Of a DNA stretch of 64,000 bases, positions 51,441 through 57,367 are shown piece after piece; position 1 is the stretch's first letter, and every line of letters starts with the position of its first letter. The stretch is from Acinetobacter indicus CIP 110367 (GTDB lineage: Bacteria > Pseudomonadota > Gammaproteobacteria > Pseudomonadales > Moraxellaceae). The DNA lies in contig NZ_KI530755.1 in the NCBI RefSeq assembly GCF_000488255.1, positions 310,001 to 374,000 on the forward strand, read 5' to 3'. A model generated the notes under the pieces. That model was not told the DNA's origin. It saw only the letters and a program-made list of their open reading frames with translations, and did not search any database. A program made the translations under genes and the position numbers.

Positions 51441-51511
51441 TATGGCCAGTTGTCAGACAATTTTTCTGTTGTGTCCCGAATTGATATAAATTTTATCGCT
51501 TTTTATCAAAC

Positions 51512-51531
51512 TTGACATTGAGTATTGTCAA
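51512..51531. promoter_or_regulatory. Inverted repeat/-35 region upstream of the monooxygenase gene
   Basis: TTGACA, eight bases, TGTCAA: an inverted repeat whose left arm is also a perfect -35 hexamer, 48 bases before the start codon. A second palindrome, TTGTCAGACAA, lies at 51450-51460. Both could bind a regulator. Confidence 0.4.
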
Positions 51532-53099: not shown

Positions 53100-53123
53100 A
53101 AGGAAGCTCAATTGAGCTTCCTT
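53100..53123. terminator. Bidirectional terminator
   Basis: A 24-base perfect palindrome centred on CAATTG: AAGGAAGCTC with its complement. It lies between the convergent monooxygenase and acyl-CoA dehydrogenase genes. The T-run is short, so efficiency is uncertain. Confidence 0.6.
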
Positions 53124-54770: not shown

Positions 54771-55149
54771 GCGCGACTTTCAGCTGAAACCGAGCCGTCT
54801 GGCGCTGCTGTTTCAGCTGAGCCTGCTGATTCTATTTTCTGTTTTAAGTTTTCAATTATTACATCCGCTGCTTTGGCTGCTAGGTCTGCTCCTGGCGGCT
54901 GTCAGTTATTACGGGTTTCAGCGACGCTCCCAATTAACCGCCTTGGCGCATTTAGATGGGGCAGAGTGGAGTCTGCAGTTTAATTCTGGCTCCAAGATTC
55001 AACGCGGTCTGCTCGAGCATATTCTGGATCATCAGCTGTATCTGGTGCTGTATTTTCATCATGCACCGGTCAAATCTGCAGTCATCTGGCGTGACCAAGT
55101 TTCGTTTGCAGAGTGGAAAGCCTTAAAAACATTGGCAAAAACCATCTAA
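54757..55149 (+). CDS. ygfX: YgfX-like inner-membrane protein
   Basis: A 130-residue protein with two N-terminal hydrophobic segments (about residues 16-33 and 35-52) followed by a cytoplasmic beta-rich domain with GAEWSLQFNSGS and VKSAVIWRDQVSFAEW. Size, topology and the 14-base overlap with sdhE match YgfX (CptA), described in E. coli as a membrane partner or toxin-like protein of SdhE (CptB). In other bacteria the pair serves succinate dehydrogenase function. The sequence is poorly conserved, so the call rests mainly on context. Confidence 0.75.
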   Translation: MSTAKRDFQLKPSRLALLFQLSLLILFSVLSFQLLHPLLWLLGLLLAAVSYYGFQRRSQLTALAHLDGAEWSLQFNSGSKIQRGLLEHILDHQLYLVLYFHHAPVKSAVIWRDQVSFAEWKALKTLAKTI

Positions 55150-55296
55150 TTGTCAGACAGTTGTATATTTTAATATAAAAATAAGATATTGATTTTAAAT
55201 AAATTTAGAAAGTCTATCATTTTATTTGTCCTACACAGTCACGATAAATTGGCAAAAAATACCGATTGTTGGACAAAAGCCTCTTGTGTTTGAAAA

Positions 55297-55476
55297 TTAT
55301 CCAGATATATTAAAGACACCAACAGCAAACAGGGAAATCGCCAGGGTGATCGCCACGTGAATGTTTCTGGTCATCGCAATTGTGTTCAATTGTGGCTGGA
55401 TGATGAGGAAGCTTGCTGAAGGAACGAATTGCACCAATAAAATGCCCGTAATTGGGTTCCAGTTAATAAGTAGCAT
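55297..55476 (-). CDS. Possible 59-residue membrane protein, antisense to the candidate RNA
   Basis: The minus strand has an uninterrupted frame from ATG 55476 to TAA 55297-55299. It encodes MLLINWNPITGILLVQFVPS, then a second hydrophobic stretch HVAITLAISLFAVGVFNISG with a short TRN turn before it. It looks like a two-helix membrane peptide or a remnant of a larger membrane protein. There is no ribosome-binding site before the ATG and no terminator after the stop, which argues against it. An in-frame TAG lies just upstream of the AAAAAA run. Confidence 0.25.
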   Translation of the reverse strand: MLLINWNPITGILLVQFVPSASFLIIQPQLNTIAMTRNIHVAITLAISLFAVGVFNISG

Positions 55477-55507
55477 GTGCTGAACCGTCGCAATGCTACT
55501 TTTTTTT
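55469..55507 (+). terminator. Strong terminator in the ygfX-lipoprotein gap
   Basis: AGTAGCA at 55469 pairs with TGCTACT ending at 55501, followed by a run of T residues. It closes a transcript that either starts at 55318 or reads on from ygfX, which ends 320 bases earlier. Confidence 0.8.
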
Positions 55508-55665
55508 GCCTAAAATTTGGCTTTCCTGCAAATTCAGTCAATTTTCTTGCCCGCTTTTCATGTCAAAGTACAGCTCTCAGATTAGAGTAAATGCTCTTTT
55601 ATTCAGATAATGCATCTGATATGTTTGTTGCCATGGACATAAACACAATTATAGAGGACAGGAAA

Positions 55666-56739
55666 ATGTCGCAAGTCCAAAAAATCTGCCAGGGTGTGGC
55701 GGTTATTGCATTCACAACAACACTTCTTTCCGGCTGTTCACAAGTGGTGAAAACCGGTGCCAATGTGGCTTTAGGTTTTACAGAAAAACATATTGTTCCT
55801 CCCATTCTGGCTATGGATGATGCCGAAATGGTCTGTAGCAGCGGCAATTCCTTGACCCCTGCAATTATGGCCACCAAAGATATGGGGGCAGACCCGACCC
55901 GGGTTGCGGTGCTGATGTATTCAGCCGCCGGTATCTGTGCGGAAAACCGTGCCCTAGATGCCGAGCTGCGTTATTTGCGTGCGTCAAAAGCCGGACAGGT
56001 CAGTGAAGCGCAAGATGCCCGGATTGAACAGAAACGCTGGGCGGCTATTGCGGCACAGCGCCAATATACCGGTTATCAGTTATTCCAGAATCGCTGGGAA
56101 AAGAAATACAGAAAACCACTGGGTGAAGGCTGCCCGAAAATGAACAGCGATATTGATCAGACCGTGTATTTGCTTGGCATGATCAGTGGTTTACAGGCCA
56201 TGACCAATGATATTAACTCTGGCGGTGCGGTGCATGTGCCTAAAGATATTGCTGCCGTGGTCGAGCGTGGCATGACCTGTCTGAACAATGAAAAATTCTG
56301 GGGTGCACCACAAGCCACCCGTGCCGTGATCTGGACCTTGTTGCCAGGTGCGGGAGATGGCAAACCGGAGCCGTATCAGACCCTGAAACAGTCGATGCAA
56401 ATTGGTGAGCAGAAAGGTGTGCGCCTGTCGCATGCCCTGTATGCAGTGGCCGCGCAGGCCAGCGGCGATGATGCCAAGATTCGTGATGCGCTAAAATCAT
56501 TTGCGGCTGCACGCACCGAAGAAAAACCAATTAACCCGCAATTCAAGCTAATTGACAGCATGGCTGCCACCATGGTGCAGGGGATTTCAGACCGTTACTG
56601 GACTGAAAATACCGGGGTACGTACTGCCGATGATGGTATGAGCCGTTTCTGGGATGAGCAGGACAATGCGTCTGAACTGGATGATTTATTTGGTGAAGAT
56701 ACAACGGCCGTTCCAGATACGGAACTCAACAATCTGTAA
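55666..56739 (+). CDS. Hypothetical lipoprotein, 357 residues
   Basis: Not assigned to a known function. MSQVQKICQGVAVIAFTTTL followed by LSGC is a lipoprotein signal, with the lipidated Cys near residue 23. The mature part is mostly helical and rich in Ala and Arg, contains four further cysteines that could pair, and ends in an acidic tail EDTTAVPDTELNNL. The frame is open from 55591, but ATG 55666 with AGGACAGGA upstream begins exactly at the signal peptide. It precedes the rhombosortase gene by 55 bases and may be co-transcribed. It lacks a GlyGly-CTERM tail, so it is not an obvious rhombosortase substrate. Confidence 0.8.
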   Translation: MSQVQKICQGVAVIAFTTTLLSGCSQVVKTGANVALGFTEKHIVPPILAMDDAEMVCSSGNSLTPAIMATKDMGADPTRVAVLMYSAAGICAENRALDAELRYLRASKAGQVSEAQDARIEQKRWAAIAAQRQYTGYQLFQNRWEKKYRKPLGEGCPKMNSDIDQTVYLLGMISGLQAMTNDINSGGAVHVPKDIAAVVERGMTCLNNEKFWGAPQATRAVIWTLLPGAGDGKPEPYQTLKQSMQIGEQKGVRLSHALYAVAAQASGDDAKIRDALKSFAAARTEEKPINPQFKLIDSMAATMVQGISDRYWTENTGVRTADDGMSRFWDEQDNASELDDLFGEDTTAVPDTELNNL

Positions 56740-56794: not shown

Positions 56795-57367
56795 ATGACA
56801 CTTCATTTTTTCAGTAAGAAAATTATTTTTATTGCCGTGTTTATGTCGCTGGCGGCCTGTTTGCAGGTGTTTGCGGATCATTTTATTTATTGGCGTCCTG
56901 CTCTGTTACAAGAATTCTGGCGCTTGTGGACAGCGCATTGGGTGCATGTGGGCTGGGTGCATTATCTGCTGAATATTCTGGCCTTTGCCTGTTTGCCTTT
57001 TATTTTTCCGCGGGTCAAAACCTGGCATTTTTTCAGCCTGTTATTACTATTACCTCCGGCTATCAGTTTCAGTTTCTATGTCCTGTTTCCACATATTGAA
57101 GCCTATGCCGGCCTGTCTGGGGTGCTGCATGGAGCCTATATGGCGGTGGCAGTAGTGCATTTGCTTGATGCTCAAGAACGCCGGTTTGCTGCGCTGGTAT
57201 TGCTGCTGATTCTGGCCAAACTGCTGTGGGAAAATACCTTTGGCAGTAAGGAAACGGCCGAGCTGATTGGCAGCCCGGTACTGGTCGAGGCGCATTTGCT
57301 GGGCGTGATCTGGGGTGCGGGATTGGCGATTGTCTATCTGATCTATACCTACAGCTTGAAAAAGTGA
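56795..57367 (+). CDS. rrtA: Rhombosortase
   Basis: A rhomboid-family intramembrane serine protease of 190 residues with about six hydrophobic segments. The catalytic Ser108 is in YAGLSGVLHGAY and the His167 in VEAHLLGVIWG. HWVHVGWVHYLLN matches the conserved H-x4-H-x3-N region. Rhombosortases cleave GlyGly-CTERM tails of exported proteins, often type II secretion cargo, before surface release. No protein with such a tail was seen in this window. The gene sits between a lipoprotein gene and a TRAP permease gene. Confidence 0.85.
   Translation: MTLHFFSKKIIFIAVFMSLAACLQVFADHFIYWRPALLQEFWRLWTAHWVHVGWVHYLLNILAFACLPFIFPRVKTWHFFSLLLLLPPAISFSFYVLFPHIEAYAGLSGVLHGAYMAVAVVHLLDAQERRFAALVLLLILAKLLWENTFGSKETAELIGSPVLVEAHLLGVIWGAGLAIVYLIYTYSLKK

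Follow-up and report, generated by a model that had tools for sequence, protein, structure and literature searches.

Does the stretch downstream of sdhE-ygfX in Acinetobacter indicus CIP 110367 hold a small RNA that never had a gene, or is it what remains of something larger? In the window, by which we mean the whole 64,000 nucleotides analysed (contig NZ_KI530755.1, positions 310,001 to 374,000), direct reading finds a transcription unit of about 190 nt without a usable ORF, with a predicted start at 55318 and a U-run that extends to 55507. The unit lies downstream of sdhE-ygfX, and a lipoprotein-like gene (55666–56739) is found further downstream. The sequence-only reading of this DNA had placed a promoter-like pair and an intrinsic terminator around such a stretch; the coordinates are confirmed, and the unit is present in close relatives as well.

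All elements of the unit are located on the + strand. A weak −35-like element, TTGTGT (55284–55289), agrees with the consensus at three of six positions and is not conserved in 23 aligned relatives; a 16-nt spacer separates it from the −10 element TATATT (55306–55311), identified from the sequence and the alignment of relatives, many of which have TACATT or TAAATT. The predicted RNA start carries the 5′-leader motif ACCAACAGC (55318–55326), retained from ORF-bearing relatives. Near the 3′ end, an AU-rich single-stranded stretch, CAGTTAATA (55460–55468), precedes the terminator hairpin (55469–55500), with the loop UGAACCGUC and its core AACCGU, which is delineated by conservation, covariation and folding, and a run of eight T (55500–55507) marks the predicted 3′ end. 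Alignments place the −10 element, the leader and the terminator at corresponding positions in close relatives, and the unit is therefore considered real; from the conserved −10, leader and spacing we infer that it has its own promoter. A scan with consensus promoters and terminators listed neither the promoter nor the hairpin, because the −35 element matches at only three of six positions and the 9-nt loop exceeds the limit of eight. The 50-nt terminator stretch (−13.5 kcal/mol, z −3.0) folds better than all 200 of its shuffles, in agreement with the earlier description of a strong terminator, and 3 of 200 shuffles are as good as the 32-nt hairpin alone (z −2.9). The structure of the complete 192-nt RNA is not unusual (z −0.98, 37/200 shuffles as good). 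Upstream of the lipoprotein-like gene there is a near-palindrome, AGAGTAAATGCTCT (55584–55597), which reads AGAGTAAATACTCT in many relatives; the distance from the hairpin to this gene is nearly fixed, mostly 190–198 nt, and the next gene but one downstream of the unit is that of a rhombosortase (56795–57367, TIGR03902, E 8.6e-43).

Assignment of the unit to a described RNA family or to another reading frame found no basis. A search of positions 54800–56000 against Rfam, one of the checks recommended by the sequence-only reading, returned four matches (E up to 10), none of which comes near the gathering score and all of which are attributable to chance, and membership in any Rfam family was rejected. 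The remaining + strand ORFs start without a convincing ribosome-binding site, and the sole listed one near the hairpin is a 20-codon frame opening with GTG. Conservation does not follow the codons of the 59-residue minus-strand frame, which had been named as one of the observations that would speak against an RNA: read from the ATG that matches the frame of the window, 22 of the 23 aligned relatives have 2 to 6 stops and the remaining one (L019) has one stop. In three relatives (L002, L003 and L009) a different minus-strand frame is free of stops over the stretch. L019 is also peculiar in that a CACCAAG tandem repeat replaces the usual upstream region, about 170–270 nt upstream of the hairpin.

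Where the window looks empty, all 23 aligned relatives have an ORF. In most of them a Shine-Dalgarno sequence such as GAGGA and an ATG introduce a protein of 31–37 residues, e.g., MVIPTWMFLVVAIVLAIVIGRLGTVLKDRFAQHESQ, which is shortly followed by the hairpin. Alignment with these relatives delimits a decayed copy of the small-protein ORF in the window (55343–55451, + strand), in which the start codon ATG has become AGG (55343–55345), a TGG (Trp) has become TGA (55358–55360), and two nucleotides have been deleted between 55386 and 55387. Judged by these lesions, the ORF in the window is dead. A search of the genome to which the window belongs did not find an intact copy elsewhere; at the locus it returned the remnant that contains the TGA (E 0.2), and its one other hit was a weak one within a long frame (E 0.016). 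The label of an orphan unit with no convincing gene thus holds for this genome in so far as no usable gene is present, and fails for the relatives, which have a small membrane-protein ORF there, as well as for the history of the window itself, which carries the decayed copy.

With a profile of the small protein and a threshold of 25 bits, 113 of the 130 distinct hairpin loci scored were matched and 17 were not; L184, which is incomplete at the locus, was left out of the ORF counts, so that 113 of 129 distinct Acinetobacter loci are counted with the ORF and 16 without it. L035 is included among the former by its profile score despite a frame break. In the type strain of A. baylyi (locus L130), the ORF and the hairpin are both present. 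Two profile matches at least 224 nt apart are present in 38 of the 113 loci, which are therefore taken to carry tandem copies. The protein is 31–53 residues long, as measured among 88 loci, and in 17 sequences its motif is a single hydrophobic helix followed by GR-x-GT and a charged tail, from which a tiny single-helix membrane protein is predicted. Searches of Pfam and NCBIfam gave no match above the cut-offs. The pN/pS ratio is 0.42 (112 codon sequences; 4613 pairs with pS below 0.6), the codon differences over all pairs are distributed as 34% in position 1, 14% in position 2 and 51% in position 3, and by these measures the codons of the small protein are under purifying selection.

A family-wide search identified matches to the small protein in 31 of 149 genomes and 3 of 16 genera. 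In one of these genera of Moraxellaceae (g10), the protein is found downstream of sdhE-ygfX, with one gene between, in the three loci examined. Since the ORF is present at the sdhE-ygfX locus in another genus of the family, its absence is best read as loss, and at this locus the ORF probably predates Acinetobacter; parsimony applied to the Acinetobacter loci alone does not fix its state at the root. At a second locus (L229, L230, L231, L233), two to four members of the small-protein family (MSVLLFPVVAFGLAVVVGRIGTVMF...), again tiny membrane proteins, are arranged in tandem, close to a gene that we take to resemble glutamine-dependent NAD synthetase; divergent tandem copies at this second locus are seen in some species.

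The hairpin itself was found by a covariance model in 125 of 149 genomes of the genus, with one strong copy in each (82.8 bits for the copy in the window), and was absent by the same model from 24. The scores were at least 72 bits in 122 genomes and about 51 bits in three, the sequences of which were among the model's own 21; the rest of the family yielded only weak matches, reaching at most 32.8 bits. The exact pattern of the hairpin was detected in 105 stretches in named genomes, all of Acinetobacter, with one match each among the 80 genomes listed with counts, and in none of the viral contigs. Outside the search pattern, T(−10), T(−9), A(−7), A(−5), G(−3) and the T-run to +33 are invariant in 129 of 129 loci; invariance inside the pattern is partly a matter of choice, because these loci had to match it, and the gathering of loci by similarity or by the exact pattern inflates the apparent invariance of the loop. 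Among the 90 loci fetched by similarity, 88 match the exact pattern, the exceptions being L089 and L090. A genus-wide search with 441 nt matched 129 of 149 genomes, in part weakly or at places other than the hairpin, and the RNA on the 5′ side of the hairpin is conserved only among close relatives.

The stem of the hairpin is maintained by compensatory changes. In 21 diverse sequences, pairing holds in 97.8% of the pair cells, and double changes account for nine cells in three pairs. Neither any of 500 shuffles nor any slid version attained the covariation score; if only the number of pairs with double changes is considered, 65 of 500 shuffles attain it, and the relatedness of the sequences weakens both tests. 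Three divergent homologues have a changed inner stem; all that they have in common with the other sequences is AACCGT, the core of the loop, and portions of the stem. A control terminator located 2.3 kb away has partial matches in 22 of 149 genomes, its own included; many of these represent a dispersed repeat and at least one (G146) is apparently at the same place. The terminator-like palindrome at 53100–53123 of the window, where two genes converge, is likewise similar to a dispersed repeat, which has up to 12 matches per genome, on both strands, in several Acinetobacter genomes. In L244, one of the 24 genomes from which the hairpin is absent, a strong terminator hairpin, GTAGCATGATGATT...AATCATCATGCTAC, without the AACCGT loop, stands in the place of the conserved one. 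The comparison across Acinetobacter suggested by the sequence-only reading has thus yielded compensatory base changes and a conserved −10, leader and terminator, with TTGTGT as the one element not retained; together with the genus-wide hairpin and its nearly fixed loop, these changes support well the view that the unit is a small RNA.

The two parts of the unit do not always occur together. Sixteen of the 129 loci retain the hairpin but lack the ORF; 14 of them were placed on a tree calculated from sdhE, ygfX and the lipoprotein gene and form five clades (L072 and L171, with too little aligned sequence, were not placed; L184 is excluded, and its inclusion gave a sixth clade). On this tree the window clusters, with a support of 0.96, with the A. 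towneri lineage, in which most of the ORF is gone. In three genomes (L247, L248 and L249), the ORF is present and the hairpin is replaced by a different terminator. As there are both ORF-less hairpins and hairpin-less ORFs, the two halves separate in both directions, and this is the best evidence for the hairpin being more than the tail of an mRNA. The occurrence of ORF-less hairpins in five clades, along with the compensatory changes, indicates that the RNA segment is under selection of its own. The loop of the terminator found in L247, L248 and L249, UUCUCCCA, is C-rich; C-rich loops pair with Shine-Dalgarno sites in other sRNAs.

Upstream of the unit, an operator-like palindrome, TTGTTGGACAA (TTGT-N3-ACAA, 55266–55276, + strand), recognised by its conservation, is centred 47 nt before the leader motif. 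Two imperfect copies on the same strand, each with one mismatch, are found at 55150–55160 (TTGTCAGACAG) and 55226–55236 (TTGTCCTACAC). Of the 129 loci, 123 have the exact palindrome in the 600 nt that precede the hairpin, compared to a mean of 2.4 and a maximum of 7 loci in 100 mono-nucleotide shuffles, and to 0 of 64 in a coding control region. When up to one mismatch is allowed, 60 of 129 loci contain the leader motif, and the spacing between operator and leader is 46–48 nt in all 57 loci that have both in order; in L014, L021 and L086 no operator precedes the leader match because that match, probably spurious, lies upstream of the operators. All 113 loci with the ORF have the operator, and the six loci without it are all ORF-less (6/16 vs 0/113, a probability of about 1e-6 in the hypergeometric distribution, ignoring relatedness). 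The exact leader motif is found in one of the 16 ORF-less loci, namely the window itself.

TTGT-N3-ACAA is also found upstream of a gene encoding GntR and FCD domains (loci L208 and L294–L309) in 15 of 16 genomes, including that of the window. FCD-type regulators bind TNGT-N3-ACNA. This regulator is proposed for the unit because the same conserved site precedes both the unit and the regulator's own gene. Counted over the whole of the genome examined (G000), the motif shows no enrichment, with 13 and 13 occurrences vs 22 and 23 in the reversed control, and the case for the operator rests on its conserved position, not on enrichment. Another candidate operator, at 51450–51460, is situated upstream of a monooxygenase gene starting at 51525 or 51579, which we take to be almA-like; the operator upstream of this gene is kept in 4 of 15 genomes. 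A candidate regulon of the GntR/FCD protein would thus comprise its own gene, the unit of small protein and sRNA, and the almA-like monooxygenase gene. The regulator described in PMC11784139, which was followed up for its TTGTC match, is of the AraC type in the portion of that article available to us, and a link with it is unsupported.

That most of the genus retains the hairpin with hardly a change in its sequence suggests a function of the RNA as such, probably as a small regulatory RNA. We consider it probable that the unit is a dual-function RNA resembling SgrS/SgrT, the protein half of which has been lost in the window, and that what is left is an Hfq-type sRNA pairing through its loop and governed by a GntR/FCD operator. 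This interpretation builds on the decay of the ORF, the retention and covariation of the hairpin, and the conserved operator and −10 described above. The ancestor would have been a short mRNA that encoded a tiny membrane protein with a single helix and whose 3′ end also served as a small regulatory RNA. In the lineage of the window, the protein half decayed, as is evident from the alignment, and a noncoding RNA of about 190 nt, transcribed from 55318, would have been left. Its 3′ module would consist of the AU-rich single strand, the terminator hairpin with the nearly fixed loop and eight U, and both the AU-rich strand and the U-run are compatible with Hfq binding. As most likely an sRNA of the Hfq type, it would use the loop to pair with mRNAs at sites resembling GACGGUU, repressing or activating them, and the operator at about −47 would probably be read by the GntR/FCD regulator, as the shared and conserved sites suggest. 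A search for the exact 9-nt complement of the loop (pattern CGACGGTTCD) in five genomes gave 70 sites, none of which was at a sense translation start among the 30 examined; the counts did not exceed those of the reversed control in any of the five genomes, and none of the three sites examined in the window was in a sense translation-initiation region. We can speculate, more tentatively, that Acinetobacter possesses a new dual-function RNA specific to the genus, in which tiny membrane proteins, often in tandem, are combined with a terminator-loop sRNA under a single GntR/FCD regulator, and that in several lineages, including that of the window, the RNA half has outlived the protein half; this broader proposal is possible, and we would stop just short of calling it probable.

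Could the hairpin be nothing but an efficient intrinsic terminator of the small-protein mRNA, of sdhE-ygfX, or of both, with no regulatory role? It has the form of such a terminator, it stays where both the ORF and the operator have been lost and could still end the transcription of ygfX there, and the strong hairpin that replaces it in L244 has an unrelated loop. However, termination needs a stem and a U-run and not a fixed loop, whereas AACCGU, the core, persists even in hairpins with an altered inner stem, conservation is far lower in the one control terminator, 2.3 kb away, and the ORF-bearing L247–L249 make use of an unrelated terminator. A plain terminator is thus unlikely. It is also rather unlikely that the RNA is mainly a processed fragment of the sdhE-ygfX 3′-UTR, at least in lineages without the ORF, and not the product of its own promoter: although the exact operator is missing in 6 of the 16 ORF-less loci, the RNA of which could therefore stem from read-through of ygfX, and the exact leader motif is limited to 1 of the 16, that one locus is the window, which retains the operator, the −10 and the leader at the ancestral 47-nt spacing.

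One might see in the small protein a type I toxin and in the locus the remains of a toxin-antitoxin system, a view that would fit the tiny hydrophobic proteins, their tandem copies and their repeated loss, and ygfX weakly matches a toxin family (23 bits vs the cut-off of 27.3); yet no family was matched above a cut-off, and the loss of a toxin would leave the retention of the hairpin loop unexplained, which makes this explanation improbable. Hardly credible at all is an RNA that titrates CsrA, as hinted at by the sequence-only reading on account of four GGA triplets, one of them within GAGGA. The four triplets are no excess over the 3.4 expected by chance, three of them (55398–55423) align with GGA in codons of the relatives' ORF, and none is located in the conserved hairpin.

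If the dual-function interpretation is true, Acinetobacter, for which few sRNAs with known targets are available, would gain a widely conserved dual-function RNA and a family of membrane proteins that has no Pfam or NCBIfam model. The lineages lacking one half or the other form a natural series, in which the roles of the RNA and of the protein are directly comparable. A lesson of this locus is that a stretch that seems noncoding deserves a comparison with related genomes before the name of orphan sRNA is given to it.

Among the sRNAs of Acinetobacter, Aar resembles the unit in being an RNA with a conserved 3′ hairpin; in A. baylyi it presumably lies between trpS and sucD. By position alone, the AB5075 sRNA ABUWs075 or ABUWs078 could be the hairpin unit, a guess that depends on the presumed orientation of the genome. 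According to the accessible part of PMC11472050, the 3′ hairpins of Aar are its most conserved part and its seed contains CUCC; identity of the unit with Aar was rejected, as there is no CTCC in the RNA of the window. Aar in AB5075 is assigned to 861839–862019 in the available text of PMC5320573, and the six Northern probes for AB5075 sRNAs printed there match none of the 193 hairpin loci. OmpZ and HemZ of A. baumannii are 3′-UTR-derived Hfq sRNAs (PMC12802169, in part), alike in originating from the 3′ ends of mRNAs in the same genus; OmpZ differs in that its source is the mRNA of an outer membrane protein. No link to the hairpin locus was seen for the sRNA SabS in the section available of PMC12153292. 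A literature search combining sdhE, sRNA and A. baumannii gave no article on the locus as judged by titles and the beginnings of abstracts, the scope to which this negative is confined.

Dual-function RNAs provide the closer comparison. VcdRP of Vibrio cholerae includes an ORF of 29 amino acids, a 3′ base-pairing segment and a Rho-independent terminator, and both of its halves are conserved in all species tested there (PMC8672173, in the part seen). In contrast, the ORF has been lost repeatedly in Acinetobacter, and the pairing segment of VcdRP, with its four C, differs from the loop AACCGU. In layout and evolution, the unit resembles SgrS/SgrT of enteric bacteria, in which an upstream small ORF is followed by a conserved RNA segment near the 3′ end and an intrinsic terminator; the pairing segment of SgrS/SgrT is highly conserved, and the ORF is present in only a subset of species (excerpts of PMC4021124 and PMC8672173). 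The search of described RNA families in Rfam gave no match for the unit. It differs from SgrS/SgrT in that the conserved segment is the loop of the terminator itself and the candidate regulator is GntR/FCD-like.
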